Origin: a virus
Reading direction: 5' to 3' (one strand)
DNA length: 50,764 nt
Virus record (IMG/VR): IMGVR_UViG_3300030099_006312
Coordinates: 1 to 50,764 of that record
Notes under the pieces: model-generated
Told to the model about the DNA's origin: nothing
The model's input: only the letters and a program-made list of their open reading frames with translations
Database searches by the model: none
Translations under genes and position numbers: made by a program
Shown: positions 2,737 through 46,547 of the stretch, piece after piece
How positions within the stretch are numbered: position 1 is the stretch's first letter
How the letters are laid out: every line of letters starts with the position of its first letter

Positions 2737-3105
2737 ATGGTAAAAATTTTTAAAATCATATCTATAATAATATTTAGTGTTACATCTTTAAATGTTAACG
2801 CTCAAACTAAAATAACAAAAGTAAGTAATTCGGGTATACAAGTAGTAGAATTTAACGCTAAATGGAATTCAGCAAAAAATGTTTCTTGGTTAGGTAAACT
2901 TAGTGATTGTTCAGTAGGTAGGTTACTTATAGATGAAAATCCAAAATTTCAAAGTAGATACAAGATACTGGTAGTACCAACAATTATTGTTTTTAGAGAT
3001 GGTGAAGAAATGGAACGATTTCAAGCTAATATAATGATGGATATGGAAGTTACAGTAAAAGATGTGCAAGAATCAGTGGATGATGCACACATGGAGGGAT
3101 TTTAA
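2737..3105 (+). CDS. Exported thioredoxin-fold protein lacking the CxxC active site
   Basis: The protein has 122 residues. A signal peptide (about 1-22, ending NVNA before Gln) leads to a thioredoxin-like domain: VVEFNAKW stands where thioredoxins have V-x-F-x-A-x-W-C, and VVPTIIVFRDGEEMERF matches the cis-Pro loop and last strands. The usual CxxC is replaced (WNSAK), and a lone Cys lies a few residues on, so disulfide exchange is not expected. The fold assignment is from motif spacing. It may bind unfolded or partner proteins in the periplasm. It ends 4 nt inside the convergent small gene on the other strand. Confidence 0.6.
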   Translation: MVKIFKIISIIIFSVTSLNVNAQTKITKVSNSGIQVVEFNAKWNSAKNVSWLGKLSDCSVGRLLIDENPKFQSRYKILVVPTIIVFRDGEEMERFQANIMMDMEVTVKDVQESVDDAHMEGF

Positions 3106-3344
3106 CGCCTAAAACCTTTTATTTCAGTTCTAGTACCTATTCCAATCATAGTATTAATAAAATTAATTCTTTCTTCTATTTTACTTTTAGCCATATTAAG
3201 TATTTCAGTATCAAATTCTGAATTAACCCAATTAACAAAATCTTCACTACTAAAAGGAGCTTCATAATTTGTTAAATCAACCTCTTCTTCTATTTTATTT
3301 AAAAGTTTCTGATATTGCTTTTCTGTTAAAATAATCTTAGACAT
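3102..3344 (-). CDS. Small protein with the shared N-terminal capsid-targeting-like element
   Basis: The protein has 80 residues. It starts MSKIILTEKQYQKLLNKIEEE, the same pattern seen in the genes starting at 11921, 16152, 17823, 24349, 24678 and 28023, whose bodies are unrelated. The body is short, acidic then basic, with no known domain. A TATTTATA box lies 16 nt upstream of the start on the minus strand, as for the other late genes. By analogy with T4 internal proteins it may be packaged in the head and trimmed by the prohead protease; that is inference. Confidence 0.6.
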   Translation of the reverse strand: MSKIILTEKQYQKLLNKIEEEVDLTNYEAPFSSEDFVNWVNSEFDTEILNMAKSKIEERINFINTMIGIGTRTEIKGFRR

Positions 3345-9965: not shown

Positions 9966-10775
9966 ATGAAAAACGACATCCGTAAAGTTTTAAGAGAATA
10001 TTGGAACAACGAACCAGACAAATGGGGGTTGTTAGAAATGGATGTTCGTGCTCTTACAGATAAAATTATTGAACGTCACAAAGATAACTGGGGAGGTGAC
10101 CAATATGCTGTTATTGATGCGATACAACAAGTATTTGAAGGTATGTTCGAAAAAGTACCAATTAATGAAGTCGTAGATAATGTTAGTGGTGGAGAAGAAA
10201 AATTAAAAGACTCTGGTAATACTCTTATCGGGTCACAATACTATAAAGGTTATGGTGATAATAAAGGTTATTATGCTGAAACTATAAATAAAGATATATT
10301 TTTTAAAATAATAAAAGCAATAGTCCAATATACAGAAATTTCTCAAATCCAAGAAATACATGACGATGAACCTTATCGTTGGGCTGAAATTATTGACCCA
10401 GTAGTTAAATTATTTGATGTTAAAAATATAAACTATTCACCAGACGGTCTGGGTACAAGAATTTGGTTTACGATTAAAAATCCTAAAAATTATGATGGTA
10501 TAAAAGATGGTACCATCACTAATGTTAACCAATTAGAAATACCTGAAAGAAAAACTTTTGAAGTTCATATGAATCAAGATGATACGGAATTTGTAAATTA
10601 TAGGTATACTGTGACTGTTGTTGGTTATGATGAGGACGCTGTTGCTATTGCAGTACGAGACGATGAAGATGATGAATATAATTGGTATGACCATGAAGAT
10701 ACTAAAGATTTTAGTAGAGACGTGTATGATGGAGAGACAGGGTCAAAAGAAGTTATATCAATAAAAGAAATATAA
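9966..10775 (+). CDS. Hypothetical late protein, acidic C-terminus
   Basis: The protein has 269 residues. It starts MKNDIRKVLREYWNN, a short basic amphipathic N-terminus like that of neighbouring late genes. The middle contains an alpha/beta region with no known motif. The last ~70 residues are very acidic with beta character (RYTVTVVGYDEDAVAIAV, RDDEDDEYNWYDHED). It has its own late-type promoter box and precedes other candidate internal proteins. No family is recognised. Confidence 0.6.
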   Translation: MKNDIRKVLREYWNNEPDKWGLLEMDVRALTDKIIERHKDNWGGDQYAVIDAIQQVFEGMFEKVPINEVVDNVSGGEEKLKDSGNTLIGSQYYKGYGDNKGYYAETINKDIFFKIIKAIVQYTEISQIQEIHDDEPYRWAEIIDPVVKLFDVKNINYSPDGLGTRIWFTIKNPKNYDGIKDGTITNVNQLEIPERKTFEVHMNQDDTEFVNYRYTVTVVGYDEDAVAIAVRDDEDDEYNWYDHEDTKDFSRDVYDGETGSKEVISIKEI

Positions 10776-11920: not shown

Positions 11921-12373
11921 ATGAAAAAAATTTTAATCACAGAAAGACAACTAGAAAGACTTACTAAAAAAGTACTTAACGAACAAACTGTACCAGATAG
12001 TGATAAAAAATTAAATATTTTTTGTCAAAGTGATATTTTAAATGATAGTTTTCACGAAAGTGGTTTAACTTATTCTGATGATAAGGATTTACATGGTGGT
12101 GTTAACAACGGAGGGTTTAAAAGAATTTCTCTACAGGCAAACCCTAACATTCCCCGTCAAACATATGAAATAGGTTATAATCAACCTATAACTTTAGACG
12201 CTATTTTAACCAAAAACTTAAGTAAAGATTTATTAAAAAGGACAAAAATATCGGGACACCAAGAAGGTCAAGATATTTTAGCTTTTATCATCCATAAAAA
12301 GCGTTCACCTTATTTCTGTAAAATCGAGAGAGGGACTGACTCTGCTTGGGCTACCTATCTAAATAATCTTTAG
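11921..12373 (+). CDS. Putative packaged protein with capsid-targeting-like N-terminus
   Basis: The protein has 150 residues. It starts MKKILITERQLERLTKKVLNE, a textbook example of the shared element, with LNE before Q as a possible cleavage site. The body is a small alpha/beta protein with two Cys (NIFCQSDI, PYFCKIERG) and no recognised motif. It ends 4 nt inside the convergent secreted-protein gene. Confidence 0.6.
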   Translation: MKKILITERQLERLTKKVLNEQTVPDSDKKLNIFCQSDILNDSFHESGLTYSDDKDLHGGVNNGGFKRISLQANPNIPRQTYEIGYNQPITLDAILTKNLSKDLLKRTKISGHQEGQDILAFIIHKKRSPYFCKIERGTDSAWATYLNNL

Positions 12374-16140: not shown

Positions 16141-16147
16141 TATTTAT
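16141..16147 (+). promoter_or_regulatory. Late-type promoter box TATTTAT
   Basis: TATTTATTGGTATG leads directly into the ATG at 16152. Confidence 0.6.
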
Positions 16148-16151
16148 TGGT

Positions 16152-17561
16152 ATGAAAATTAAATTATCTGAAGAACAATATAAAAAGTTAATGAGTGAAA
16201 TAGGTGGGTATGATGACCCAGCTACAGGTAGGAGGGATGAAGAAGCTATCATGCGTACAGTTATAGAGTCTTACAAAAATTTAACTAACGGAATGAATAT
16301 ACTTAGTGATTTAATTCCTGGTATTTTAGTACAAGACCGTCTAAGAAATCAACTGATGGAAATTAGAGAATCCTTAGTTAATCCGTTAAATGGGTTTAGT
16401 GCCCTATTGAGGGACATCCAAGGCCAACAAGGTGAAGGTCGAATGGAAGATTCAGATATGGAATTAGATGAAGGAAGAAAAAAGAAAAGAAAATCTAGAA
16501 AGAAAAAGTCAAGAAAGAAAAAATCTAAAAAAGGAGATAGATGTACTAGAATAGCTAAAAGAAAATATGATGTATGGCCTTCAGCTTATGCGTCAGGTGC
16601 TGTAGTTAGATGTAGGAGAGGAGAGATTTGGAAAGGACTTAACGAAGAAGATGTTTCAAATGTTACTGAAGGTTGGTCTGACGAATATAAAAAATCCATA
16701 GATTGTAATAACCCAAAAGGATTCTCACAAAAAGCTCACTGTGACGGTAAAAAAAAAGCGTCACTAGAAGAAGCTAAAAGAAAAAAAAGAAAATCAAAAA
16801 AAAGAAAGTTAACTTCTAAACCTAGTTCTGAAGGCAGTTTACGTGACTGGTTTAAAAGAAAAGGTGCTAAAGGTAGTAGTGGTGGTTGGGTAGATTGTAA
16901 CGCACCAGATGGTGATGGAGGTTACAAATCTTGTGGGAGACAAAAAGGTGAAAAACGAAGTAAGTATCCCGCTTGTAGACCAACACCATCCGCGTGTAAA
17001 AGTAAGGGTAAAGGTAGAAAATGGGGTAAAAAAGCTGCACGTAACGAATCTTTAGTTTATCATCTCAAAAACAATATCCCCTTAAATGAAAGTGTTTTTA
17101 GATATGGGAGTGACTCTCACTTTAACTTAATTAATGACGCTAGAAATTTATTTAAAGAAAATGAATTACAATTAAATCCTGTAGAAAAAGATTTGGTAGA
17201 AAGTGATATGGGTAGGTTTGGTTATTACCAAAATGAATTAGTTCCACTAGACTTACCTATGGAACTTAATGAAGCAGAATACAGAGGTAAAAAAGTTACA
17301 TTAAACAAACCTAAAAGAGGTGGGTCTAAAGCATATTACGTTTACGTTAAGAATCCAAAAACAGGGAAAGTTAAAAAAGTGGCTTTTGGTTCTTCAGGTC
17401 TTAGAGCAAAAATTAATAACAGAGGTGCTGTTAAGAGTTTTGTAGCACGTCACAAGTGTAAACAAAAAAACGATAAGACTAAACCAGGTTATTGGTCCTG
17501 TAGATTACCTAGATACGCTAAATCTTTAGGGCTAGCTGGTGGTGGTGGACAATGGTGGTAA
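16152..17561 (+). CDS. Very basic putative DNA-packaged head protein with DUF5872-like segments and several gp21-like sites
   Basis: The protein has 469 residues. It starts MKIKLSEEQYKKLMSEIGG (shared element; MSE as possible cleavage site). Residues ~112-130 and ~210-222 are Lys/Arg runs. Two cysteine segments resemble DUF5872 proteins: CTRIAKRKYDVWPSAYASG near 132, and GGWVDCNAPDGDGGYKSCGR near 243 with CRPTPSACKSKG. Multiple candidate prohead-protease sites lie between blocks (LDE-G, LNE-S, LVE-S, LNE-A). The C-terminal ~100 residues form another basic module (KAYYVYVKNPKTGKVKKV). It may be a precursor cut into several basic peptides that bind DNA in the capsid, as T4 internal proteins are. 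That is inference. Confidence 0.65.
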   Translation: MKIKLSEEQYKKLMSEIGGYDDPATGRRDEEAIMRTVIESYKNLTNGMNILSDLIPGILVQDRLRNQLMEIRESLVNPLNGFSALLRDIQGQQGEGRMEDSDMELDEGRKKKRKSRKKKSRKKKSKKGDRCTRIAKRKYDVWPSAYASGAVVRCRRGEIWKGLNEEDVSNVTEGWSDEYKKSIDCNNPKGFSQKAHCDGKKKASLEEAKRKKRKSKKRKLTSKPSSEGSLRDWFKRKGAKGSSGGWVDCNAPDGDGGYKSCGRQKGEKRSKYPACRPTPSACKSKGKGRKWGKKAARNESLVYHLKNNIPLNESVFRYGSDSHFNLINDARNLFKENELQLNPVEKDLVESDMGRFGYYQNELVPLDLPMELNEAEYRGKKVTLNKPKRGGSKAYYVYVKNPKTGKVKKVAFGSSGLRAKINNRGAVKSFVARHKCKQKNDKTKPGYWSCRLPRYAKSLGLAGGGGQWW

Positions 17562-17565
17562 GAAT

Positions 17566-17826
17566 ATGAATTTTCCATTTAAAGAATACACCCAAGACGG
17601 GTACCACATTAGAACTTTTTCACAAAAAGTAGACAGTGAAGAATTAATGTGGCATAGAGACAAAGAAGATAGGATAGTAGAATCCGTAGGGAATACTGAT
17701 TGGATGATTCAACTAGACGATAAATTACCCCAGACCTTAACTGAAAAAGTATTTATACCTAAAGAGATTTACCATAGAGTAATAAAAGGAAATGGTGATT
17801 TAACAGTAAAAGTTAAAAAATTATGA
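17566..17826 (+). CDS. Small cupin-like protein
   Basis: The protein has 86 residues from ATG 17566; an earlier GTG at 17539 overlaps the upstream gene. It is beta-rich with the pattern LMWHRDKEDRIVE, then WMIQLDDKLPQ, IPKEIYHRVIKG and GDLTVKV. Paired His/Glu and a late His resemble a one-domain cupin or similar jelly-roll fold. The stop overlaps the superoxide dismutase start by 4 nt, so the two are coupled. Metal binding is possible but not established. Confidence 0.55.
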   Translation: MNFPFKEYTQDGYHIRTFSQKVDSEELMWHRDKEDRIVESVGNTDWMIQLDDKLPQTLTEKVFIPKEIYHRVIKGNGDLTVKVKKL

Positions 17827-18470
17827 AAATTATAATAACAGAGTCACAATATAATTTAATATTGGAGAGTAAAGAAGATAACTTTAAAAGAGTTAAACTT
17901 CCTTATGACTATTCTGATTTAGAAAAATTTGTAGGAAGAGAAACTATGTGGGAACATTATAATCGTCATTATAAAGGTTATACTACTAAACTTAATGAAG
18001 CATTTTCCCATAGAAAAAATCCACCTAAAGATATTGTAGGTATTATTAAAAACATTGGGAGGTACGATAAATTCACCAGAGATAATGCGGGTGGTTATTA
18101 TAACCATAGTTTATTTTGGAATTACTTAAGTCCTAAACCAACTAAACCTTCACCAGAATTAAATAAAAAAATAAATGAAGATTTTGGTAGTATGTCTAAA
18201 TTTAAAAAAAAATTTGACGAAGAGTCTGCTAAAGTTTTTGGTTCTGGCTGGTGCTGGTTAGTATTTAAAAGTGGTAAATTAAAAGTTATTACTACACCAA
18301 ACCAGGATAACCCTCTTATGGATAATTTAGGTAAACCACTTTTAGGGTTAGATGTGTGGGAACACGCTTACTATCTAAATTATATGGCAGACCGTAAAAA
18401 ATACATTAAAAATTTCTGGAAAGTAGTTAACTGGGATACAGTTTCTAAAGAATTTAATTTGGTAGTTTAA
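17823..18470 (+). CDS. Mn/Fe superoxide dismutase with capsid-targeting-like N-terminal extension
   Basis: The protein has 215 residues. The dismutase core starts near residue 22 (FKRVKLPYDY). Metal ligands are present: His45 in MWEHYNRHY, His95 in NHSLFWN, Asp177 and His181 in DVWEHAYY. AGGYYNHSLFW and a Gln in PNQDNPLM point to the Mn-type or cambialistic form. Superoxide is converted to hydrogen peroxide and oxygen. Ahead of the core is MKIIITESQYNLILESKEDN, the shared late-protein element with LE-S as candidate cleavage site; ordinary dismutases lack this. This suggests loading into the phage head. Translation is coupled to the cupin-like gene. Confidence 0.93.
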   Translation: MKIIITESQYNLILESKEDNFKRVKLPYDYSDLEKFVGRETMWEHYNRHYKGYTTKLNEAFSHRKNPPKDIVGIIKNIGRYDKFTRDNAGGYYNHSLFWNYLSPKPTKPSPELNKKINEDFGSMSKFKKKFDEESAKVFGSGWCWLVFKSGKLKVITTPNQDNPLMDNLGKPLLGLDVWEHAYYLNYMADRKKYIKNFWKVVNWDTVSKEFNLVV

Positions 18471-24028: not shown

Positions 24029-24352
24029 ATGGGTAATTCTTTTAAGTTAAGTCTACATCTAGAGCATATCATTAATGATATAGTTGAAAAGCGCCAGTCT
24101 GGAAAGGGGGAGGATAGATTATCGGAAAATATATTTACTTTTTTAGATACTATTTATGAAAATAGGGGAAAAGTAAATAATGTAGAAGCTATGCGTCTTG
24201 TTAAAGGAGGTTTTAGAGACCAACTTATTAAAGAGGCAATGTGTGAAATGTCTGATGATGAAGATTACCTTACTTCTACCATAAATAAAAAAATAGATAC
24301 ACTGTCCAAAGAATACATTAAAGAGTGGATTAATAAAAAAATTGTAAAATGA
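24029..24352 (+). CDS. Small helical late protein
   Basis: The protein has 107 residues, helical and charged (SLHLEHIINDIVEKRQSGKGEDR; FLDTIYENRGKVN; IKEWINKKIVK). No family recognised. It is first in a three-gene operon with 4-nt overlaps (ATGA), where the next two proteins carry the shared N-terminal element. Its own start (MGNSFKLSLHLEHI) does not match that element well. Confidence 0.55.
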   Translation: MGNSFKLSLHLEHIINDIVEKRQSGKGEDRLSENIFTFLDTIYENRGKVNNVEAMRLVKGGFRDQLIKEAMCEMSDDEDYLTSTINKKIDTLSKEYIKEWINKKIVK

Positions 24353-24681
24353 AAAAAGTAGTAAGACTTACCGAATCAGAATTAGTTAGAATTATCGAAA
24401 ATCTAACTTTAGGTTATGAATTAGAAGAAAAAAAAGAAGGTTCTTCTACAAAAACCCAAAGTGAAAGTACACCTAAGACCGCGAATCCAATAGCGAAAAA
24501 AACTTTTGATGATGTTGTAGGTCATTTAGAAGCTACTAAAGGAACTTTTACTTTAAGAAATAGAAGTACGACACAAAACGACGAAGACGATAAACTTAAA
24601 AAGACTTGGAAATGGAAAACTAATGATGAAAAAGTTGAAATTGTTGTTACCCTTGACGTTAAAATGAACCCTAAAAAATGA
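24349..24681 (+). CDS. Small protein with the shared N-terminal element
   Basis: The protein has 110 residues. It starts MKKVVRLTESELVRIIENL, the shared pattern, followed by a Ser/Thr/Lys linker and a short beta module (GTFTLRNRSTTQNDEDDKL; KVEIVVTLDVKM). No known family. Translationally coupled on both sides. The place of a cleavage site is less clear than in its neighbours (ELEE near 25). Confidence 0.55.
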   Translation: MKKVVRLTESELVRIIENLTLGYELEEKKEGSSTKTQSESTPKTANPIAKKTFDDVVGHLEATKGTFTLRNRSTTQNDEDDKLKKTWKWKTNDEKVEIVVTLDVKMNPKK

Positions 24682-25640
24682 AAAAACTAATATTAACTGA
24701 GACTGAACTAATTGCTATTATTAAGAGTATCATTAGTGAACAGGAGGGTACCGAAGGTGGTGGTGTGGAGTCTGGTACTTCAGACGCTGGAGGAACAGGA
24801 GCTTCTACTTGGTCCACAGGACTTACCAGAGGTGCAGCAAATCCAGCTGGTGGAGGTGTAACTCACTGGGCAGACTCTTACAGTATTAGTAGGGGAAAAG
24901 CAAATCCATTATCGGAAGAAGAAGACGAGAATTTACTAAATGAAAGTAAATGGTATAACACCTTTTTAGATGTTGTTGGAATTGTAGACCCAACAGGTAT
25001 AGCTGACGGTATAAATGCAATATCTTATTTTAGACAAGGAGATATGTTATTTGGAATTTTAAGTTTAATTTCTTTAGTTCCTTATCTAGGTGATGCGATT
25101 GCGAAACCTTTTATCGGGATAATCAAAATGGGTAAAATAAATAAAAATGTAATAAATGCTGGTCTCAAATCTGGAAACGCTGCTAAAGTCGCAGCAGAAA
25201 TGGGTAAATCCACTAAAGGTAAAGCGGTGTTGGATGCTATGAAAAACCCTAAAACACAAAGTTTTATAGCTGGCCTTTTAGCTAAGTTAGGTAAATTACC
25301 AGGAATGGGTAGGTTTGTAAAAGACGCTAAAACATATACAAAGGTATTTACAGAAGCTGCAACATTAGCTTCAAAAGGTAAAGGTGTTAGAATATTTAGA
25401 AGTGGTGGACTCCTTACTAAAATGCAAAGAAGAGGTCTACTAAATAGAACAAAATTATATGGTAAGTTTATACAGTGGTTAACTGGAACTGGTGTAGGAG
25501 CTGCAGCAATACAAGGAATGAGTGATGATGAACTAAATAAGAAGTTTACTAATTTCTTAAATACTGAAGATGGACAAAACTTTTTCTCTCAAATGGACTT
25601 AGGTGACCAAGAAGAAATGGTTAATGCTATGTCATCTTAA
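24678..25640 (+). CDS. Putative ejected protein with pretoxin-like hydrophobic region
   Basis: The protein has 320 residues. It starts MKKLILTETELIAIIKSIISE (shared element, ISE before Q), followed by a Gly/Ser/Thr-rich linker. Residues ~91-150 (FLDVVGIVDPTGIADGINAI, then GILSLISLVPYLGDAIAKP) closely resemble the hydrophobic pretoxin segments of polymorphic toxins. The rest is basic with further Gly/Ala helices (FIAGLLAKLGKLPGMG) and ends with an acidic helix. Packaged, membrane-active ejection proteins have this style. Function is inference. Confidence 0.6.
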   Translation: MKKLILTETELIAIIKSIISEQEGTEGGGVESGTSDAGGTGASTWSTGLTRGAANPAGGGVTHWADSYSISRGKANPLSEEEDENLLNESKWYNTFLDVVGIVDPTGIADGINAISYFRQGDMLFGILSLISLVPYLGDAIAKPFIGIIKMGKINKNVINAGLKSGNAAKVAAEMGKSTKGKAVLDAMKNPKTQSFIAGLLAKLGKLPGMGRFVKDAKTYTKVFTEAATLASKGKGVRIFRSGGLLTKMQRRGLLNRTKLYGKFIQWLTGTGVGAAAIQGMSDDELNKKFTNFLNTEDGQNFFSQMDLGDQEEMVNAMSS

Positions 25641-28022: not shown

Positions 28023-28841
28023 ATGGCTAAAATAAAATTTACTGAAGCAGAATTAATTGATTTCATAGAAGAAATCGCTAAAGATAAAAAGAAAACTAAC
28101 AAACCTGTTTTGTCCGAATCTAAATCTAGAAAGATAGAAATTTGGAAAAGAAGATTTGAAAGAAAAAATATTAACGAATCTGATGATGTCATATGTGAAA
28201 ATTTTTATAATGAAATTTTAAAACTTAACAGAAACGGAATTTCACCAGAAGATGTATCACTTTTTTTAGAAAGTAAAACTCAGTTATTGGGTGAACAATC
28301 TGTAGGTGGACTTAATTTAAGTCAAGGTATATTTGGTGGATTATGGGAAACAATCCGAGAAAAATTATATATGTGGATTTTAGGTAAGTTTGGTGTGGAA
28401 GGAGAATTAGCAAAGTATTTATCACAATCATTAGCAAACGTTCCTTTCTTTGAGTTACCTAAACTTATGAATTGTAACTACTTAGCTCCTGTAATTACTA
28501 AAGGTGTGATAGAATATGCTGTACGTAGTGTGGGTGCGAAATTTACTGGTATGTCAGGTACATTTGAACAAATTTTCGGTAACAGTTTAGATAATTTGTT
28601 AGACAACACTGAGTTTTACCAAGATGTATTACAAGGTGTTACTAATACTATTTGTGGTCCACTAGGTGAAAAAAGAACTCAGGTACAAGGTGCTATTAAT
28701 AGTGTTGAATCTGAATATGAAGGTCAGTCGTCACCTAATCAAAAAACTACACCTACTGGTAGTAACACTGCTGGAATAGATGGTAGCACGTTCCAAAAAT
28801 ATTTTGATATGTTTAAACAGAATATGGCAGCATCAGAATAA
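28023..28841 (+). CDS. Putative packaged protein with the shared N-terminal element
   Basis: The protein has 272 residues. It starts MAKIKFTEAELIDFIEEIAKD, the shared pattern, with later candidate sites (LSE-S near 38, INE-S near 56, LGE-Q near 91). The basic stretch KSRKIEIWKRRFERK lies between two of these sites. From ~95 on the protein is hydrophobic and helical (LWETIREKLYMWILGKFG; VIEYAVRSVGAKF) with two Cys, and it ends in a polar tail. No family recognised. It lies 21 nt after the 775-residue gene and is followed by a strong terminator. Confidence 0.6.
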   Translation: MAKIKFTEAELIDFIEEIAKDKKKTNKPVLSESKSRKIEIWKRRFERKNINESDDVICENFYNEILKLNRNGISPEDVSLFLESKTQLLGEQSVGGLNLSQGIFGGLWETIREKLYMWILGKFGVEGELAKYLSQSLANVPFFELPKLMNCNYLAPVITKGVIEYAVRSVGAKFTGMSGTFEQIFGNSLDNLLDNTEFYQDVLQGVTNTICGPLGEKRTQVQGAINSVESEYEGQSSPNQKTTPTGSNTAGIDGSTFQKYFDMFKQNMAASE

Positions 28842-29437: not shown

Positions 29438-29445
29438 ATATTTAG

Positions 29446-29519
29446 TACACCCGATAGGATTCGAACCTATGACCTACTGCTTAGAAGGCAGTTGCTCTAT
29501 CCAGCTGAGCTACGGGTGC
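29446..29519 (-). tRNA. tRNA-Arg (anticodon UCU)
   Basis: Full cloverleaf: acceptor GCACCCG/CGGGTGT, D-arm AGCTCAGCTGG...GAGC, anticodon arm CTGC-CTTCTAA-GCAG, T-arm ATAGG-TTCGAAT-CCTAT. CCA is not encoded. It decodes AGA, a codon used heavily by the phage genes here. Confidence 0.95.
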
Positions 29520-29526
29520 ATTTGGG

Positions 29527-29611
29527 TACTCGGGGCGGGAATCGAACCCGCACGGCCACAATGGCCAAGGGATTTTAAGTCCCTCGTGTCTACCTATTCC
29601 ACCACCCGAGC
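29527..29611 (-). tRNA. tRNA-Leu (anticodon UAA)
   Basis: Class II tRNA with acceptor GCTCGGG/CCCGAGT, anticodon arm GGGA-CTTAAAA-TCCC, a long variable arm (TGGCCATTGTGGCC) and T-arm GCGGG-TTCGATT-CCCGC. It decodes TTA, the dominant Leu codon in this AT-rich genome. First gene of the minus-strand RNA operon. Confidence 0.95.
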
Positions 29612-29634
29612 ATGTTTGTGTGATGAATACAAAG

Positions 29635-32089: not shown

Positions 32090-34129
32090 TTAAACTGTAA
32101 TTATTTTTACTTCCTTATCTTTATTAACACTTAACGAGTAGTGAACATCTTCCAATATTTCACCTTTTAATATATTTTCAGAAATAAAATCCTCTATGTC
32201 GTTCTGAATAGCTCTTTTAATGGGTCTGGCTCCAAATTTGTCATCATATCCTTCCTCTACTACGTATTTAGTTACAGAATTATCAAAGATAATATTGTAA
32301 TTTTTTTCATTTAAACGTTCCTTAAGATTAAGTAATTCTAATTTAACAATTTTAGAAATAGTTTTTTTCTGAAGAGGTTTAAAGACTACTGTTTGGTCTA
32401 TTCTATTTAAGAATTCGGGTCTAAATGTGTTTTTTAAAGCTTTTTTAATTATTTGGTCTTTAGCTTCTTCTAGTCTAGACTCACTATCTTTTGTAGAAAA
32501 ACCAAGAGGTTTATTAAATTCACTAACTTGTTTAGCCCCCACATTAGATGTCATTATAATTAATGTGTTCTTAAAATTTATTTTTCTCCCCAGACTATCA
32601 GTAAGGTGACCCTCGTCAAATATCTGAAGTAATAGGTCATATATGTCTGTATGAGCTTTCTCAATCTCATCTAGTAGTATTACTGAGTAAGGTTTTTTTC
32701 TAACTGCCTCTGTCAATTGGCCACCTTCATTATAACCTACGTATCCTGGAGGAGAACCTATTAGTCTAGTAGAGTTAAATTTTTCTTTGTACTCTGACAT
32801 ATCTAATCTAATCAATGAATCTTCATTACCAAAAATTTCTTTCGCGATAGACTTAGCTAAATGAGTTTTACCCACACCAGTTGAACCTAAAAACATAAAA
32901 GAACCTATTGGTTTTTTAACTTCTCTAATCCCCACTCTATTTCTTCTAATAGCTTTGGCTATTTTTCTAATAGCTTCATCTTGACCCATTACTAATTTTT
33001 TTAATGAGGTCTCTAAAGATAATAAATTTTTAGTCTCATTAGTGTCTAATTTAGTTAATGGTATTTTAGTTATTTGGGAAACCACTTCGTAAATATCTTC
33101 TTCTGTAACACCCACTCTTTGTTCTTCCATTTCTATTTCCCAAGAAGCTTTTCTATCTTCTAATTCATCAAGCACATGACGTTCCTGGTCTCTTAATTCT
33201 GCGGCTTTTTCATACTTCTGAGATTTTACAACCTCGACTTTTTCTAATTTTAAAGATTGTAGTTTATTACGAAGGTCTTCGATTTCCTTAGGAAATTCTA
33301 TGTCAACTTGTACTTTCGCACCTACCTCATCCATAATGTCAATAGCTTTATCTGGAAATTCTCTATGTGTTATATATCTTTCAGCTAATGTAACACACGC
33401 TTCTAAAGATTCAGGACTAAAGTTTACTTTATGGTGTTCTTCATACCTATCTTTTAAGTTTTGTAAAATTTGTAGAGTTTCCTCAACAGTTGTAGGTTCT
33501 ACCATGACTTTTTGAAACCGTCTTTCTAGTGCACCATCCTTTTCAATATTCTCACGATATTCGTCTATAGTTGTAGCTCCTATACATTGCACTTCACCCC
33601 TCGCTAAAGCTGGTTTAAAAATATTAGCTGCATCTAAAGCACCAGAAGCATTACCAGTACCTACAACAGTGTGAATTTCATCTATGAAAATTATTATATC
33701 GGGATTTTCTCTTAACTCATCTATAATAGCTTTCATTCTTTCCTCGAACTGTCCTCTATATTTAGTACCCGCAACAATAGAAGTTAAATCTAATCCTATA
33801 ATTTTTTTATCTAATAAATTTCTAGGACATCTTCCTTCACTTATTTTCATCGCTAACCCTTCTACTAAAGCAGTTTTACCACATCCAGGTTCACCTATTA
33901 ACACAGGATTATTCTTTTTCCTTCTGGATAAAATTTGAGCTATTCTATTAATTTCTTCACTCCTTCCAACTACAGGGTCTAATTTTCCCTCTTCCGCATA
34001 TTTTATTAAATCTCTAGAAAAATTATCTAATACTGGAGTAGTACTTTTACTACTAGTACCTTTATCTCTTCTAGGTGAGTTCTTCTCTTCTGACGACTCA
34101 AAATCAGCATAATTACCTTCTAATTTCAT
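32090..34129 (-). CDS. clpC: ClpC-type AAA+ unfoldase lacking the N-domain
   Basis: The protein has 679 residues. Two AAA+ modules are complete: D1 Walker A GEPGCGKT (79-86), pore loop KYRG (123), Walker B FIDE (148); D2 Walker A GSTGVGKT (415-422), pore loop GYVG (462), Walker B LLDE (485). The middle region has a UVR-like motif (KYEKAAELRDQE near 305), typical of ClpC. The usual ~150-residue N-terminal repeats are replaced by a ~35-residue charged Ser-rich leader. PLGF at 541-544 matches the ClpP-docking tripeptide, so it could feed host ClpP. Loss of the N-domain should change substrate or adaptor choice. Divergent from dnaK. Confidence 0.95.
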   Translation of the reverse strand: MKLEGNYADFESSEEKNSPRRDKGTSSKSTTPVLDNFSRDLIKYAEEGKLDPVVGRSEEINRIAQILSRRKKNNPVLIGEPGCGKTALVEGLAMKISEGRCPRNLLDKKIIGLDLTSIVAGTKYRGQFEERMKAIIDELRENPDIIIFIDEIHTVVGTGNASGALDAANIFKPALARGEVQCIGATTIDEYRENIEKDGALERRFQKVMVEPTTVEETLQILQNLKDRYEEHHKVNFSPESLEACVTLAERYITHREFPDKAIDIMDEVGAKVQVDIEFPKEIEDLRNKLQSLKLEKVEVVKSQKYEKAAELRDQERHVLDELEDRKASWEIEMEEQRVGVTEEDIYEVVSQITKIPLTKLDTNETKNLLSLETSLKKLVMGQDEAIRKIAKAIRRNRVGIREVKKPIGSFMFLGSTGVGKTHLAKSIAKEIFGNEDSLIRLDMSEYKEKFNSTRLIGSPPGYVGYNEGGQLTEAVRKKPYSVILLDEIEKAHTDIYDLLLQIFDEGHLTDSLGRKINFKNTLIIMTSNVGAKQVSEFNKPLGFSTKDSESRLEEAKDQIIKKALKNTFRPEFLNRIDQTVVFKPLQKKTISKIVKLELLNLKERLNEKNYNIIFDNSVTKYVVEEGYDDKFGARPIKRAIQNDIEDFISENILKGEILEDVHYSLSVNKDKEVKIITV

Positions 34130-34327: not shown

Positions 34328-36193
34328 ATGGGAAAAGTAATTGGTATAGATTTAGGAACAACAAATTCCTGTGTTGCCGTAATTGAAGGTAACGAACCTA
34401 AAGTTATTGTTAATGGTGAAGGTCAAAGAACCACGCCATCTGTAGTAGCTTTTAAAAATAAAGGAGAAAGGGTAGTTGGTGACCCAGCTAAACGACAAGC
34501 GGTCACTAATCCTGAAAAAACTATCTACTCAGTAAAAAGATTTATGGGTAGTACATACTCAGAAATTAAAAAAGAGGCAAGTAAAATGCCATATAAAGTA
34601 TCACAAATACATAATAATGGTGTAGGTATAGAAATAGATGATACGGATTATATTCCACAAGAAATTTCAGCTGTGGTTTTACAAAACCTTAAAAAGACAG
34701 CTGAAGAATACTTGGGTGAAACAGTGACAGATGCTGTTATTACTGTACCAGCTTATTTTAATGATTCACAAAGAAATGCAACTAAAGAAGCGGGAGAAAT
34801 TGCGGGATTAAATGTTTTAAGAATTATAAATGAACCAACCGCAGCTTCACTAGCTTATGGTCTTGATGATAATAAAGATAAAAAAGTTGTAGTATATGAT
34901 TTAGGTGGTGGTACTTTTGATGTTTCTATTTTAGAAATGGGTGATGGTGTTTTTGAGGTACTTTCTACAAATGGTGACACTCATTTAGGTGGGGATAATT
35001 TTGACGAAGTAATTATGGATTGGATAATCACTGAGTTTAAAAAAGAGAACGGAGTTGACATTAGTAAAGACCCCATGGCTTTACAAAGAATCAAAGAAGC
35101 GGCTGAAAAAGCAAAAGTAGAATTATCTTCATCTACTAATACTGAAATTAATTTACCTTATTTAACTGCCGATTCTACGGGACCTAAACACTTAGTAGTT
35201 TCACTATCACGGTCTAAGTTTGAAACAATGGTGGATAATTTAGTAAAGAGAAGTATTAAACCTTGTGAAAAAGCTCTTAAAGACGCTAAACTTAAAGTAA
35301 GTGAAATTGATGAGGTAATTTTAGTTGGGGGTTCTACTAGAATTCCTATAATCCAAGAGTCGGTAGAAAAGTTCTTTAAACGTAAACCATCTAAGGGGGT
35401 GAATCCAGATGAGGTAGTAGCGATGGGAGCAGCAATCCAAGGAGGTGTATTGTCAGGAGACGTGAATGATGTGTTATTATTAGATGTCACCCCACTCTCA
35501 CTGGGTATTGAAACAATGGGTGGAGTAATGACCACATTAATTGAGTCTAACAGTACAATTCCGACATCTAAGTCTCAAGTATTCTCTACAGCAGTAGACA
35601 ATCAACCATCTGTAGATATACACGTACTTCAAGGGGAAAGACCTATGGCTACCGATAATAGAAGTCTAGGAAGATTCCAACTAACGGATATACCACCATC
35701 ACCTAGAGGTATTCCACAAATTGAGGTGACTTTCGATATTGACGCTAATGGTATTATTAGTGTGAGTGCAAAAGATAAAGGTACTGGAAAATCTCAGAAC
35801 ATTAAAATTGAATCGGGAGGTAGTTTATCAGATGAAGAAATCGAAAGAATGAAAATGGAAGCTGAACAGAATCAAGCCAAAGACCAAGAAAAAAAGGAAA
35901 AAGTAGAAAAATTAAATGAGGCTGATTCCATGATTTTCCAAACCGAAAAACAAATAAAAGAATTTGGTGATAAATTAAGTGAGGAAGATGTAAATAAACT
36001 TAATGAATGTCTAGATAATCTTAAAGAATCTCATCAAAAAGAAGATATAGGATTAATTGATAGTAGTTTAGAAAAACTAAATGAAGAATGGCAATCAATA
36101 ACTACTAAAATCTATCAACAAACTGAAGAACCAGTTACAAGTGAGGATAATGAAGAACAGGCAACTGACGTTGAATACGAAGAAGTAAAATAA
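34328..36193 (+). CDS. dnaK: Hsp70 chaperone DnaK
   Basis: The protein has 621 residues, near full length for DnaK. The nucleotide-binding domain shows [13 protein letters not shown] (6-18), [37 protein letters not shown] and VGGSTRIP. The interdomain linker is [11 protein letters not shown] (near 383), followed by the beta substrate-binding domain and a helical lid. It ends in EEVK, like the bacterial C-terminal tail. It folds client proteins with J-domain and GrpE partners, presumably the host's, as none are seen here. Full-length phage dnaK genes are unusual. The KTSC gene follows after 1 nt. Confidence 0.97.
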
Positions 36194-39919: not shown

Positions 39920-41288
39920 TAAAATAGACACTCTATCTAAATTAGTTAGAGAAGGTTTCAATATAGATACCCTACTTAAGTTTAGTGACAAACAACTTAT
40001 CCAGTTAAAATCTAAAGTTTTAAACGAACAGGATGATGAAGGTACTTACGAAGTTACCAAATTAGAACCCAATAAGGCGGTAGAGGTTGAAGATGCTAGA
40101 GTATACGAAAAGGATGGTGAAACTTACATAAGTAAAAAAATTAATGAAGATGACGAACCTTATTTAGACCCGAGATATCCTGAAGCTAAATCTTATAGAG
40201 ACGCTGAAGGAAAAGAAATGAAAATATTAGAAGATAATTTAGACGAAGAAATTATGGATATGGGAGCGGGAGATTTTGACGATACTTCATTTTACAATCC
40301 CGATGCTGGTGGATTCCACAGTTCACAAGGACCGATGGATTCTTATTACTCAACAGACAATAAAGGAAAATTTGTTCGTAATGGTATGGAAGGAGACGCT
40401 GGACAATACAGTCAAAACGCTGACTATTTAGACACACCTTCATTTCACAATCCAGACGCTCAAGGTTTTGACTCAGATGGACCAATGGATTCCTATGGTG
40501 GAAACGGATGGGACGAAGGTGGTTTTGCGGGTGAATTAAATGAATTTGCACCAGAACCAGACTATTCATTTATAAATCCTGTAGCTAGAGGTCATCAGTC
40601 AGATGGACCAAGAGGACATAGTAGAGGTCTACATGAAGATGAGTCTGAAACTAACCAGTATTTTGGTCAAAAAGTAACAGGTCAATCAGTACCTCACGAT
40701 GCAGATGATATGTCAAATGACGGAATGGCTGACGATTCTGACCCAGAAAGTCCATCTCATAAAAATATGGGGGATATTGCAGAAACTCACATTACAAAGA
40801 AAGATTTAATGGAAAAATTTGCTTCTAAAGCTCAAGCAAGATATTTTTACGAAAAAGCTAATGAACCAGGAAAAGAAGGGAAAAAATGGAAAAAATACGC
40901 TAAAGAATTTTCTGACGACACAAAAGATTTTGACTCTTTACCAGAAAAAGTTAAAAAAGAAAAAAACGAACAACAAATAGTTGAAAATTGGTTACTAGGG
41001 TTAGTTGAAAAATATGAAAGACCTTCAATGACAAAATCACAATTTTTACAAACTTTAAATGAAATTGCGGTAGAGACACAAGATATTGAAGTTATTGATA
41101 ATGACGTTGATGACGCAAAATATGAGTTACCAGCTTGGATGGATTTCGATACTCTATTTATGAACGCACCATCCCCAACAACTAAACCCGCACCAACTAC
41201 GACTCCTTCTCCTACAAAACCAGGTAGAAAGTCACCTTACAAACCTAAACACAAACCAAGACCAAAAGCTATAAGTGATGAAAACTAG
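39894..41288 (+). CDS. Structural-cluster protein with three NPxAxGxxSxGP repeats
   Basis: The protein has 464 residues. The first ~45 residues are basic then helical and end in VLNEQDD (gp21-like). An acidic region holds three degenerate repeats at about 125, 180 and 222: SFYNPDAGGFHSSQGPMDS, SFHNPDAQGFDSDGPMDS and SFINPVARGHQSDGPRGHS. A helical Lys/Glu-rich domain follows, then a Pro/Thr/Lys tail. No family recognised. Its start lies inside the previous gene, and its stop overlaps the next start. Confidence 0.6.
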   Translation: MKKNIKKFSKIDTLSKLVREGFNIDTLLKFSDKQLIQLKSKVLNEQDDEGTYEVTKLEPNKAVEVEDARVYEKDGETYISKKINEDDEPYLDPRYPEAKSYRDAEGKEMKILEDNLDEEIMDMGAGDFDDTSFYNPDAGGFHSSQGPMDSYYSTDNKGKFVRNGMEGDAGQYSQNADYLDTPSFHNPDAQGFDSDGPMDSYGGNGWDEGGFAGELNEFAPEPDYSFINPVARGHQSDGPRGHSRGLHEDESETNQYFGQKVTGQSVPHDADDMSNDGMADDSDPESPSHKNMGDIAETHITKKDLMEKFASKAQARYFYEKANEPGKEGKKWKKYAKEFSDDTKDFDSLPEKVKKEKNEQQIVENWLLGLVEKYERPSMTKSQFLQTLNEIAVETQDIEVIDNDVDDAKYELPAWMDFDTLFMNAPSPTTKPAPTTTPSPTKPGRKSPYKPKHKPRPKAISDEN

Positions 41289-42654
41289 AAAAATATTAAG
41301 AGAATTTAAGAAGAACATGTTTGAAGCACCTATAGATTATGGTGATAGACCAGAGAGAATGGACCCCTCATTACAAAGAAAATTAGAAACTGGGGATTTT
41401 CCAGGTGCAGGTTCTGACGCTTATCCATCTGTAGACCCTTCAGGTATTCCAAGTAATTTTGAGGAGTTAGTGTCATCAGAAAGATTTAAATCGGTAGTAG
41501 AAAAAGTTAAGAACTATACTGGTGTTAGAAATGTGACACCCCAATCATTTATGCAATTACAACAAATGTTAATGGGTGCTACACAAAGAATTTTACAATT
41601 AGAATCACAACACAAAGAAGACCTAGAAGAACTAGCTGTCAAAATAGTAAGAGAAGAAATGGCTATCCCACCAGATGCTTTACAATTTGACGCAAAGATT
41701 GTGGGTATGGGAGAAATCGATATGTCGGGCATGCAAGGTCAATCTCAAGAACAACAGATGGACGCTGAAGAAGAAGCCATGGAAGAATTTGAGGACTTTG
41801 ATATAGAAAAACAAAAAAGAAGATTCCTAAACCAATTAATCCAAGGAGCTTCCAAAAAAGGACACTACATGTTTCATTTGGTAGAAGAAGAACTTAATAA
41901 TATTAGTCCAGATTTAATTAACTTATATGGGGTAATGATGTCAATTAATGATTTGGTTTATTGGATTATGCCAGACCAAACAACTATGATGATGGCTCAA
42001 AGTGGTCAAGGAATGGCTGGAAAAGAAGAAGTAGACCCAGACACGGACCCACCTACAGTAAAAGCACAAGGTATAACCTTTCCTATCTTAGTACATGAAT
42101 TAGTTAAGGGAGTTATGGAAGTACTTGCAACTCAAGGTTTACCAGACGACCCTAATAAAGCACAACGAGTAATGGACTCGGAAGATACATTAGTTGCGGA
42201 AGTATGGGATTTAAGACTAGGACCAGTAATCTGGGAAAAGTTTAGAGAAGCTTACCCACACGATTTACTTCAAGACGATAAAAGAGAAATTCAAAATTAT
42301 CTATTTAGTGAGTTTGCGAGTATGCAAGCGACTGATATGTTTGCATTAGCTAAGAAAATCTTAAGTGGTGGTGATGAGGGTAGAGAGGAATTAGAAAGAA
42401 TTGTTAAAGAAATTATAGAACAATTAAATGAAGAAGCTTACGAAGACGCTACTGGTGACTTTGGGGACGACGATGGTGATACTGCAGTAGCAGGTTCAGA
42501 TACTGGAGATGTATTGGGAACTCTAGATGTACCTAAAGCTAATGAAAATCAACAATATGACGTTGATGACATACTAGACAAAATAGGTAGAAGTGGAATG
42601 TCTTCACTAACAAGTGGTGAGTTACAATTCCTTAGAGACCAGTCTAAATCTTAA
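41278..42654 (+). CDS. Structural-cluster protein with cleavable-type N-terminus
   Basis: The protein has 458 residues from ATG 41278; a GTG one codon earlier is also possible. It starts MKTRKILREFKKNMFEAPIDYG, a basic leader with MFE before A, a gp21-type site. The middle is helical and Gln/Met/Glu-rich (FMQLQQMLMGATQRILQLES), then a mixed domain (ISPDLINLYGVMMSINDLVYW; VWDLRLGPVIWEKFREAYPHD) and an acidic end. It lies directly before the large terminase, where T4-like phages have neck or small-terminase genes, but no similarity is recognised. Confidence 0.6.
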   Translation: MKTRKILREFKKNMFEAPIDYGDRPERMDPSLQRKLETGDFPGAGSDAYPSVDPSGIPSNFEELVSSERFKSVVEKVKNYTGVRNVTPQSFMQLQQMLMGATQRILQLESQHKEDLEELAVKIVREEMAIPPDALQFDAKIVGMGEIDMSGMQGQSQEQQMDAEEEAMEEFEDFDIEKQKRRFLNQLIQGASKKGHYMFHLVEEELNNISPDLINLYGVMMSINDLVYWIMPDQTTMMMAQSGQGMAGKEEVDPDTDPPTVKAQGITFPILVHELVKGVMEVLATQGLPDDPNKAQRVMDSEDTLVAEVWDLRLGPVIWEKFREAYPHDLLQDDKREIQNYLFSEFASMQATDMFALAKKILSGGDEGREELERIVKEIIEQLNEEAYEDATGDFGDDDGDTAVAGSDTGDVLGTLDVPKANENQQYDVDDILDKIGRSGMSSLTSGELQFLRDQSKS

Positions 42655-42682: not shown

Positions 42683-44407
42683 ATGGGAATGAACAAACAA
42701 GAACTCATACAAGAATATGTGAAATGTCATGGTAACACACCATATGCACTTAAAACTTACTTGCAAACTTACGACAATACCCAACAGAAGCATGTACCAT
42801 TCGAATTGTTTCCAGAACAAAAGGAAATGATATATGATTTTGAAAACCATTCGGATAATATTGTTTTAAAGTATAGACAAGCTGGTGTTTCTACAGCAAC
42901 AGCGGGATGGATTTCAAAAAAACTCCAGTTCGCTTCTAAAGAGTCACCAGAAAAAATTCTTATACTTGCTAACAAATTAGATACTGCCACTGAAATGGCA
43001 AACAAGATAAAAGGTTTTTTAAGACAATGGCCCGACTGGATAAATGTAGGGTTCGATAAAGACAAAAATTCACAAAAACATTACAAACTTAATAACGGTT
43101 CTGAGGTAAAAGCAGTCGCAACTTCAGTGGATGCACTTAGAGGGTATACGCCCACAATATTAGTATTTGATGAGGCTGCTTATATAGAATCTGGTGGGGA
43201 TTTATGGGCTGCATGTATGGCGTCACTAGCTACTGGGGGTAAGGTAATTGTTATTTCCACACCTAATGGATTCGACCAAATTTACTACGAAGTTTTTGAC
43301 CAATCAGTTAGAGGGTTAAATAATTTTCGAATAAGTTATTTAAGTTGGTATCATGACCCTAGATTTACACAAGATTTAAGGTGGGTTAAAACCAAGGATA
43401 TTGTACATTTTCTTTTAAATAGAGATGAATATAATGAAGAAGACATATTATCCAAAATAGACAAAGAAGAGTACCAAACTTATTTAGATAAAGGTTACAA
43501 ACCATTTTCAGATTGGTTTGAAGCTATGTGTAAAAAATTAAAATTTGATAGACGAAAAATTTCACAGGAGTTAGAGTGTGCATTTTTAGGTTCAGGAGAC
43601 AATGTAATTAACAGTACGACAATGGACCAACTAGAAGAACATATATGTGACCCCGTTGAAAAATGGGTAGGCAATGGTCTTTGGGTTTGGAAAGAACCTG
43701 TTCCTGACCACAAATATATTATGGGGATAGATGTTTCTAGAGGTGATAGTGAAGACTCTAGTGGTTTTGTTATTATAGATTTTGATGAACGAGAAGAGGT
43801 GGTAGAATATTTGGGTAAGATTCCACCAGATATTGTAGCAGATTTAGCTAATAAATGGGCTACCAAGTATAGTTGTTTTGTAGTAATAGATATTACGGGT
43901 GGAATGGGTGTTGCTACCTCTAGAAAAATGTTGGAGTTGGGATACAAAGATTTTTATTATGATGGAGTTAAATCTGATGAAATGTGGAAATTTAATCCTG
44001 ACAGTAAGACACCAGGAATAAATTTTAATAGTAAAAGAGCACAACTAGTCCAAGCTTTAGAAGAACAATTAAGGACAGGTTTTAAAATAAGGTCGCAAAG
44101 ATTGATGAATGAATTAAAAACTTTTGTCTACATAAACGGTAGGCCCGACCACATGAAAGGTCATCACGATGATTTAATCATGTCTTTAGCTATGGCACTT
44201 TATGTGGCTCAAAATTCATTTACCCAATTAAAAAAGAATGTAGCACAAGCAAAAGCAATGATAGATGCCTGGGTTACTGACGAAAGAAAATTCAACACCA
44301 CAAAAGGAAAACCAGTATTTCAACCAGGTAGAGCGAGAAGTAATCCATTACCACCTTCTTCTAATGACCCTAAAGACTATTTATGGTTATATACTGGATT
44401 AAAATAA
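42683..44407 (+). CDS. Large terminase subunit (T4 gp17-like)
   Basis: This motor packages DNA into the prohead and cuts concatemers. The protein has 574 residues. ATPase motifs: Walker A-like YRQAGVST (64-71), Walker B LVFDEAAYI (160-168), coupling motif ISTPNG (191-196). The RNase H-like nuclease domain has MGIDVSRGDSED (Asp350), VVIDITGG (Asp403) and HHDDLIMSLAMAL (Asp496/497). The order and spacing match T4-type terminases. The ATG is fixed by the adjacent promoter box. Headful packaging is typical of this family. Confidence 0.95.
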   Translation: MGMNKQELIQEYVKCHGNTPYALKTYLQTYDNTQQKHVPFELFPEQKEMIYDFENHSDNIVLKYRQAGVSTATAGWISKKLQFASKESPEKILILANKLDTATEMANKIKGFLRQWPDWINVGFDKDKNSQKHYKLNNGSEVKAVATSVDALRGYTPTILVFDEAAYIESGGDLWAACMASLATGGKVIVISTPNGFDQIYYEVFDQSVRGLNNFRISYLSWYHDPRFTQDLRWVKTKDIVHFLLNRDEYNEEDILSKIDKEEYQTYLDKGYKPFSDWFEAMCKKLKFDRRKISQELECAFLGSGDNVINSTTMDQLEEHICDPVEKWVGNGLWVWKEPVPDHKYIMGIDVSRGDSEDSSGFVIIDFDEREEVVEYLGKIPPDIVADLANKWATKYSCFVVIDITGGMGVATSRKMLELGYKDFYYDGVKSDEMWKFNPDSKTPGINFNSKRAQLVQALEEQLRTGFKIRSQRLMNELKTFVYINGRPDHMKGHHDDLIMSLAMALYVAQNSFTQLKKNVAQAKAMIDAWVTDERKFNTTKGKPVFQPGRARSNPLPPSSNDPKDYLWLYTGLK

Positions 44408-44738: not shown

Positions 44739-46547
44739 ATGGCAGAAAACAATATGACAATTTTTCAAAGGTTAACTAACCTTTTTGGTGCTGAGGGACC
44801 TCAGGCACCTAAACGTAGTTATAGTTTTGATAAAAAAGATATTTTAAAAACTACATCTAAAGCTGATTATGACCGTACTAAATTAGAACTACAACAAGGT
44901 CAGTATTTAGCTAATCAATGGCAGAAAATAGAATCACAACTTTATTCTCAGGCAGTTTATTATGAACCTACTAGATTAGCTTCTTATTATGATTATGAAT
45001 CTATGGAGTTTACTCCAGAAATTTCAGCAGCTTTAGATATTGTATCTGAAGAAGCTTGTACCATTTCTGAAAGAGGTTACATGTTGAACATATATTCAGA
45101 ATCTAAAAGAATAAAAGCTATACTAGGCGATTTATTTAATAACGTTTTAGACATAGAATCTAACCTACCAATGTGGGTAAGAAACACATGTAAATACGGT
45201 GATAATTTTGTTTACCTTAAAATTGACCCCGAAAAAGGTATTGTGGGAGCAAGTCAATTACCTAACATTGAAATTGAGAGAATCGAAAAAGGTATGAACA
45301 CTTACCAAACTAACCATACTGAATCTGAAGAGAGAGAAGTTAAATTTATATGGAAGAATAAAAATATGGAATTCAATACCTGGGAAGTAGCACATTTTCG
45401 TTTACTTGCTGATGATAGAAGACTTCCTTATGGGACTTCTATGTTAGAAAAATCTAGACGTATATGGAAACAATTACTTCTAGCAGAAGACGCTATGTTA
45501 ATATATAGAACTTCTAGAGCTCCTGAAAGAAGAGTATTTAAAGTCTACGTTGGTAACATGGAAGACCAAGACGTAGAAGCTTATGTACAAAGAGTAGCTA
45601 ATAAATTTAAAAGAGACCCAATTGTAGATAAAGATACTGGAAATGTAGATTTACGTTACAATCAAATGGCTGTAGACCAAGATTTCTTTATACCAGTTAG
45701 AGATTTAGCTGCACCTAACCCTATAGAAACTCTTCCTGGAGCCACTAACCTTGCAGAAATTGCGGATATTGAATATATACAGAAAAAACTATTAGCGGCT
45801 TTACGAATACCGAAAGCTTTTCTTGGTTTTGAAGATGTGGTGGGAGAAGGTAAAAATTTAGCAATTCAAGACATTAGATTTGCTAGAAGTATTAATAGGA
45901 TTCAAAAATCTATAATACAAGAACTTAACAAAATAGCGATAATACACCTTTATATGTTAGGGTTTGAGGAGGAGTTAGGCAATTTCACTTTAGGTCTTAC
46001 TAACCCGTCTACCCAGTCTGAATTATTAAAGATTGAACAATGGAAAGAAAAAATTACTTTATATAAAGACGCTGTTACTGACCCAGGTTCTGGTATACAA
46101 GCTGTATCCGCTACTTGGGGTAAAAAACATATACTTGGGTTCTCGGACGAAGAAATTAAATTAGACTTACAACAACAACGTATAGAAAAAGCGGTAGGTG
46201 AGGAATTAAATCAAACTGCTACAATTATTAAAAATACTGGAATATTCTCCAATATAGACAAACTTTATGGTGAAATGAAACCTGACGAAGGTGGTGCTGA
46301 AGAAGCCGCTGCAGGTGGAGAAGAAGAATCTCCAGCTGATACAGGTTTAGAAGGTGGTATGGATGAGACCCCACCTACAGACTTAGGTGGTTCAGACACC
46401 GAAGCGGGAGATACACTAGCTGAAAAAAGAAAAAAAGAATTACCTCTAATTTTAGAAAAACTAGATAACAATAATTTTAATGTTGATAAAGGAAAAGATA
46501 ATTTAAACGAAGTCGCCAACAAAATAGAAAGTTTATTAAGTGAATAG
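44739..46547 (+). CDS. Portal vertex protein (T4 gp20-like)
   Basis: The protein has 602 residues. It forms the ring at the head vertex through which DNA passes. Family-like segments: YDYESMEFTPEISAALDIVS near 88, ACTISERG, WVRNTCKYGDNFVYLKID near 147, VAHFRLLADDRRLPYGTSML near 218, RAPERRVFKVYVGNM near 262, and RIPKAFLGFEDVVGEG near 358. The C-terminus is acidic and Gly/Glu-rich, then Lys/Asn-rich. It precedes the core, protease and scaffold genes as in T4. Confidence 0.93.
   Translation: MAENNMTIFQRLTNLFGAEGPQAPKRSYSFDKKDILKTTSKADYDRTKLELQQGQYLANQWQKIESQLYSQAVYYEPTRLASYYDYESMEFTPEISAALDIVSEEACTISERGYMLNIYSESKRIKAILGDLFNNVLDIESNLPMWVRNTCKYGDNFVYLKIDPEKGIVGASQLPNIEIERIEKGMNTYQTNHTESEEREVKFIWKNKNMEFNTWEVAHFRLLADDRRLPYGTSMLEKSRRIWKQLLLAEDAMLIYRTSRAPERRVFKVYVGNMEDQDVEAYVQRVANKFKRDPIVDKDTGNVDLRYNQMAVDQDFFIPVRDLAAPNPIETLPGATNLAEIADIEYIQKKLLAALRIPKAFLGFEDVVGEGKNLAIQDIRFARSINRIQKSIIQELNKIAIIHLYMLGFEEELGNFTLGLTNPSTQSELLKIEQWKEKITLYKDAVTDPGSGIQAVSATWGKKHILGFSDEEIKLDLQQQRIEKAVGEELNQTATIIKNTGIFSNIDKLYGEMKPDEGGAEEAAAGGEEESPADTGLEGGMDETPPTDLGGSDTEAGDTLAEKRKKELPLILEKLDNNNFNVDKGKDNLNEVANKIESLLSE

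Follow-up and report, generated by a model that had tools for sequence, protein, structure and literature searches.

To our knowledge, T4 is the only phage for which protein targeting to the capsid has been described in detail; one of its cargo proteins, internal protein I, blocks a restriction enzyme of the host. The packaging of foreign proteins by means of a capsid-targeting sequence is established in that phage (PMC9026906, PMC3012670). T4 propeptides of 10-19 residues target proteins to the capsid. A short motif precedes the gp21 cut, which falls on the C-terminal side of a Glu; in IPIII, targeting is affected by residues 4 and 7 and processing by residues 8 and 10 (PMC9026906). Outside the phages, a packaged superoxide dismutase (SOD) is established for chlorovirus PBCV-1, whose Cu/Zn enzyme A245R is the product of a late gene, present in the virion and linked to lower superoxide in infected cells (PMC7019647).

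The DNA analyzed here is a stretch of 50,764 nucleotides (the window), comprising positions 1 to 50,764 of IMG/VR virus record IMGVR_UViG_3300030099_006312. It encodes a 215-aa SOD of the Mn/Fe family with an N-terminal leader (17823-18470, + strand), in a single ORF from ATG to stop. Both halves of the enzyme are recognized by Pfam (Sod_Fe_N, 4.9e-15, 56.2 bits against a curated cut-off of 27; Sod_Fe_C, 1.1e-41, 141.4 bits against 20.9) and together cover residues 22-209; PHROGs returned no match for the SOD. The closest solved structure is a Sphingobacterium MnSOD (2.3e-58), with a match that begins only at residue 20, and an AlphaFold model built on 28 relatives (mean pLDDT 88) compares with this structure (6gsc) at a TM of 0.87. 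The metal ligands His45 (17955-17957), His95 (18105-18107), Asp177 (18351-18353) and His181 (18363-18365), all on the + strand, are invariant in an alignment of 28 sequences, as are second-shell H49 and Y53 and the Mn-type residues G91 and Q161. The preliminary description of this locus had reported an intact core with four metal ligands, and on this point the two analyses agree. Selection on the core is strongly purifying, with a dN/dS of 0.015 in the closest pair and values of about 0.03-0.11 in wider pairs, the latter limited by dS near saturation. Given the intact fold, the ligands and the purifying selection, the predicted enzyme is very probably functional.

The first 15 codons (17823-17867, +) encode the leader MKIIITESQYNLILE, a proposed capsid-targeting propeptide. 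At the junction with the core the protein reads MKIIITESQYNLILE/SKEDN, where the slash marks the predicted cut. The candidate prohead-protease site, I13-L14-E15/S16 (17859-17870, +), follows from the T4 gp21 rule (PMC9026906) and places the cut between bases 17867 and 17868. AlphaFold predicts a helix at leader residues 7-15 with low confidence, and by eye the leader has no likeness to T4 leaders beyond the end motif. Related leaders open at least six other ORFs of the window. These are the first gene of the SOD run, which encodes a 469-aa protein without a Pfam match (MKIKLSEEQYKKLMSE; 16152-17561, +), four genes for unrelated proteins with class A leaders (MKKILITERQLERLTKKVLNE/Q, 11921-12373, +; MKKVVRLTESELVRIIE/N, 24349-24681, +; MKKLILTETELIAIIKSIISE/Q, 24678-25640, +; leader head MAKIKFTEAELIDFIEEIAKD, 28023-28841, +), and a gene for a small protein, also class A (MSKIILTEKQYQKLLNKIEEE; 3102-3344, -). 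A small gene (17566-17826, +) lies between the 16152 gene and the SOD and overlaps the SOD start with its 3' end. The extra N-terminus had been described as about 20 residues long and as a shared element with a candidate protease site; the shared element and the candidate site are borne out, and the leader measures 15 residues.

The window was compared with seven related virus records (G001, G003, G004, G005, G006, G009 and G010). Three leader classes were distinguished, with the patterns K-I-I-L-T-E-x-Q-L (class A), S-E-x-E-K-N-R-I-x-x-L-H (class B) and M-R-N-L-I-K-K-I-L-R-E (class C); the window also encodes a protein with a class C leader, MKNDIRKVLRE (9966-10775, +). In profile searches of the eight records against shuffled, reversed and internal decoys, 47, 22 and 23 real N-termini of classes A, B and C scored above the best decoy, counts that are partly circular because the seeds were hand-picked by eye. 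Most of the 60 non-redundant tagged proteins have no recognizable function. The recognizable cargo includes M23 and SLT wall hydrolases, VanY, lysozyme, a TseH-like protein, a zeta-like kinase and SOD, and in some relatives the SOD is located amid other tagged genes. There is also one tagged protein with a match to DUF5856 and one with a match to PHROG 858 (starvation-inducible), which, if Dps-like, would be a second DNA-protecting cargo.

A non-circular test of the cut site was made by defining leaders by their head alone and scanning the next 18 residues. The motif [ILVFM]xE[AQSGN] was present in 19 of 41 leaders (46%). Its frequency was 13% at the corresponding positions of untagged N-termini (p=3e-7) and 7% in windows from the interior of the tagged proteins themselves (p=5e-10); about half of these 41 leaders have no [AQSGN]-type site within range. 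The excess at leaders disappeared once Glu was replaced by Asp or Lys, or the hydrophobic P3 residue by a polar one. In T4 IPIII, Asp in place of this Glu blocks processing. A genome-wide count of motif positions made without a tag definition gave just about a two-fold excess at residues 7-24 and was superseded by this test.

The window leader is absent from related cellular enzymes. The preliminary description had named the same extension on cellular dismutases as one observation that would count against its reading. The 80 best relatives from a scan of 84,980 species genomes, mostly Bacteroidota, included 79 parseable SODs, and on inspection none of the 79 carries the leader; their cores are preceded by a bare MxFxLP-type start or an export-type leader. 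Bacteroidota Mn/Fe SODs resemble the phage enzymes in the core (about 45-52% identity, all ligands, Mn-type Gly and Gln) and differ in starting at the core or with an export-type leader. In the phylogeny of the core suggested earlier as a check, the phage SODs form a clade apart from those of Bacteroidota. Twelve apparent phage SOD matches (H1-H9 and H12-H14) were set aside as short, unannotated or host-assembly records resembling host DNA, and the SOD of MW462191 has cellular-type genes as its neighbors.

One clade (support 99) unites the SODs of the closest viruses; it falls into two groups, and the split matches the kind of leader. In the group of the window SOD the leaders are MKIIITESQYNLILE/S, MKIRITESQYNLILE/G and MNIVISESQYKLLLE/E, and in the sister group they include MRNLIKKILNENIIAE/A, MRELIKKILKEGFLSE/A and MKDLIKNIIRESLVTE/A. 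Cores are 72-76% identical between the groups, whereas the leaders share little except the end motif [ILV]xE. A similar exchange is seen in the gene before the terminase large subunit gene, which in the window begins MKTRKILREFKKNMFE/APIDYGD (41278-42654, +) and whose orthologues carry other leaders ending exactly at xE/A, among them MKKDILITKEQLDKLSYSMNE/APIDYGD in G010, RFKKNLRE/APIDYGD in G003 and MAKKKLYE/APPIEYS in G005. Five different leaders occur on this gene, and the common body begins directly after xE/AP, so that the orthologues provide a natural test of the cut position. Class A and class C leaders are also exchanged on a P-loop kinase and on one uncharacterized protein. We hold leader swapping at the predicted Glu to be the strongest evidence that the leader is a module of its own, cut off at its end.

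Viral SODs outside this clade are more varied at the N-terminus: L017 has the leader MSYESKVYQLLE/A, L015 has a 39-residue extension, and L018 and L020-L022 have no leader. The SOD of Vibrio phage 2.275.O (L183:1486-2055) also lacks an N-terminal leader and has a C-terminal extension with MLDE/SVNIRHLINFISK, possibly a C-terminal version of the tag. The zeta-like P-loop kinase is a separate tagged protein in G004, G006 and G010, and in G005 (L054-L066, 45839-51202) the same kinase is fused into a 1787-residue protein (85% identity over 186 residues).

The timing of SOD expression can be approached through promoter boxes. A TATTTATT box (16141-16148, +) lies directly upstream of the 16152 gene, with which the SOD run of the window begins, and also occurs before the protease and terminase genes; it is likely a late promoter element. 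Upstream of genes in the window and related viruses, words of the TATTTAT[AT] type show an enrichment of about 13- to 26-fold, and most of them lie some 8-27 bases from the start codon. Within distance ranges of our own choice, the box precedes 28 of 54 tagged leading genes vs 99 of 537 others (p=2e-7), and a host-type TAnnTTTG box precedes none of the 54 tagged genes vs 60 of the 537 others. In most genomes the box precedes either the SOD or the first gene of its run: it stands before the SOD itself in G004, G009 and G010, and before neither in G005. For the T4 late promoter word TATAAATA the window shows only weak enrichment (22 occurrences vs 12.6 expected); on the coding strand the enriched box is TATTTAT[AT]. 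As the boxes are common to tagged, protease and terminase genes, we infer that the SOD is expressed late. The occurrence of TATTTAT[AT] before late-type genes and of TAnnTTTG before others resembles a two-class promoter system.

These results bear on a cytoplasmic role, in which the SOD would be an auxiliary metabolic enzyme, the leader would be inert or affect translation or stability, and incorporation into heads would be incidental. In its favor, SOD is soluble, a leader is missing from some other viral SODs, and late expression alone would give the cytosol far more SOD than a few hundred packaged copies could. Such a role does not, however, account for two unrelated leaders with one end motif on the same SOD core, which demands a function linked to the motif, and the swapping of leaders at the same boundary on other genes and the Glu-specific enrichment also speak against it. 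We regard a purely cytoplasmic enzyme as unlikely.

The head genes of the window include further components of a putative T4-like processing pathway. The terminase large subunit (TerL; 42683-44407, +) and the portal protein (44739-46547, +) are encoded there, together with a prohead protease of the Peptidase_S77 (T4 gp21) family, the proposed processing enzyme (48130-48846, +). A scaffold-like acidic protein without a family match occupies the gp22 position between the protease and capsid genes (48950-50611, +), and is followed by the 5' part of a gp23-type major capsid precursor (MGALLESGMVGNIGLKHLKVIRED...; 50644-50764, +), which is ended by the window edge and present as a full copy in G001. 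The S77 protease was found in 7 of 16 searched records (the window and six fetched relatives), and six of those seven also have a gp23-type capsid protein; the seventh is the window, which gives no gp23 match because it ends inside its capsid gene. In three relatives the capsid prosegment ends HLINE/AT directly ahead of the conserved body, the same motif as at the leaders. The virus is a large T4-like phage, probably of a Bacteroidota host. Elsewhere in the window, an ORF at 34328-36193 (+) resembles by its N-terminus a full-length DnaK (621 aa), and adjoining it near the head genes is an ORF at 32090-34129 (-) that by its N-terminus resembles a Clp-type ATPase. Two tRNA genes (Arg-TCT and Leu-TAA) lie at 29445-29612 (-), where overlapping short ORFs are probably spurious.

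The leaders could instead be localization signals for another late structure, such as the tail, the baseplate or an assembly site. Some tagged genes in relatives do adjoin a tail-tube-like gene, and resemblance to the tail lysozyme and tape-measure families is seen in some of the tagged proteins. Against this, the portal, terminase, tail-tube-like and sheath-like genes, judged by their N-termini, have no such leader, and the Glu rule fits a head protease and the capsid prosegment; we consider a destination other than the head quite improbable. A leader that merely docks the SOD on the scaffold during assembly, with the enzyme degraded or gone before DNA packaging, would recall the T4 core proteins gp22, gp67 and gp68, which are degraded to small peptides (PMC9958956), but the folded, strongly conserved core with its single N-terminal site resembles the retained T4 internal proteins, and this possibility is very slight.

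The interpretation of the leader as a T4-like capsid-targeting propeptide is strongly supported by comparison of sequences, and the SOD is likely packed in the phage head. The proposal in the preliminary description that the enzyme is packaged by way of its tag is supported as far as the tag is concerned, through the S77 protease, the capsid prosegment motif, leader swapping and the absence of the leader from cellular SODs; packaging itself is likely. In the complete scheme, which we judge to be probably correct, an Mn-type (or cambialistic) SOD would be made late in infection as a precursor, and its 15-residue leader would dock it into the scaffold core of the prohead. The T4-type S77 protease would then cut after Glu15 (I-L-E/S), and the free dismutase would stay among the packaged DNA. 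The benefit, which is conjectural, would most plausibly be local, a shielding against superoxide of packaged or entering DNA and of proteins packaged with it, either at entry or while the particle is outside the cell. One hundred copies in a cell of 1 femtoliter correspond to about 0.17 micromolar, and a few hundred copies would add well under 1 micromolar SOD per cell, probably little beside the host's own. This small added concentration favors local protection over a host-wide effect, and the earlier suggestion that the enzyme blunts an oxidative response of the host is doubtful for the same reason, the copy number being too small. If the scheme holds, it becomes possible to test whether phages are under selection from superoxide during entry or from damage to virions that wait outside cells.

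Other phages offer limited parallels. Pseudomonas jumbo phage PA5oct, which belongs to a distant phage group, encodes a SOD-like protein with relatives, EST35_0261 (annotated only as hypothetical in PA5oct); it is 29% identical to the window SOD and keeps the four ligands, and the NQDNP loop is missing (Gln161 not kept). Its leader, MNDSIKKYISIAE/AASSVKK, has an end, SIAE/AA, that resembles the window-type site. The GenBank entry bears an ESI-MS/MS note, as do the structural proteins of that record. The note also stands on ribonucleotide reductase and thymidylate synthase, which leaves room for co-purification. Of the MS-noted proteins 18% have the motif at residues 7-25, vs 8% of the others (p=0.012), an excess seen at residues 40-58 too. 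The note on such enzymes and the extent of the excess weaken the hint from PA5oct. The MIJ3 and KTN4/PA5oct papers do not discuss SOD. The Flavobacterium phage immuto was examined as a cultured relative; the class A-C profiles fit it poorly and the leaders of its head-region proteins are worded otherwise (LKE/N, LKE/G). Its capsid prosegment ends QIVSE/A, leaders in its head region (L178-L181) include MADNFNLRSFLTENKLTKNAQLLKE/G and MKKQILSEQFRRMQKLAGIITE/S, and it is a possible laboratory model; we found no proteomics for this phage. In the open-access literature we found no paper linking a phage SOD with the prohead or with head cargo. The preliminary description knew of no head-packaged dismutase, and for phages no example was found here either; the statement needs qualifying in that PBCV-1 packages a late-expressed Cu/Zn SOD in its virion (PMC7019647), and that the PA5oct homologue bears its ESI-MS/MS note.

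If the leaders act as in T4, the cargo of a large group of uncultured phages, which includes an antioxidant enzyme and a kinase besides enzymes that cut the wall, becomes readable from sequence, and the tags of T4 would be joined by another set, with its own wording, that can bring proteins into heads. On balance we lean towards an exchangeable-tag system of large T4-like Bacteroidota phages, by which dozens of unrelated enzymes, SOD included, would be packed into the head, processed by the head protease and passed on together with the DNA, and which would provide the first described head-packaged phage dismutase.

Among known systems, phiKZ and SPN3US have head and ejection proteins from which a gp21-related protease removes propeptides by cutting after Glu, as proposed here, but these propeptides are often longer than 100 residues and end in S/A/G-x-E or A-x-E, and SOD is unmentioned in the available part of the source (PMC5694885). 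PBCV-1 A245R is likewise a late viral SOD inside the particle, a location that for the window SOD is predicted; it differs in belonging to the Cu/Zn family and to a eukaryotic algal virus, and the excerpted text describes no capsid tag or prohead protease (PMC7019647). A parallel also lies with the internal proteins IPI-III and Alt of T4 and their capsid-targeting sequences, with which the window shares a short leader (10-19 residues in T4, 15 here), a hydrophobic-x-Glu before the cut, an S77 protease (gp21 in T4), a gp23 capsid and unrelated cargo behind one kind of leader. Unlike in T4, the window-type leaders are worded differently, fall into at least three interchangeable classes and head dozens of protein families, and their predicted cargo includes SOD, peptidoglycan hydrolases and a kinase. 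What appears to be new is therefore a phage SOD as putative tagged head cargo and the exchangeability of the leaders; the principle of delivery is already known.
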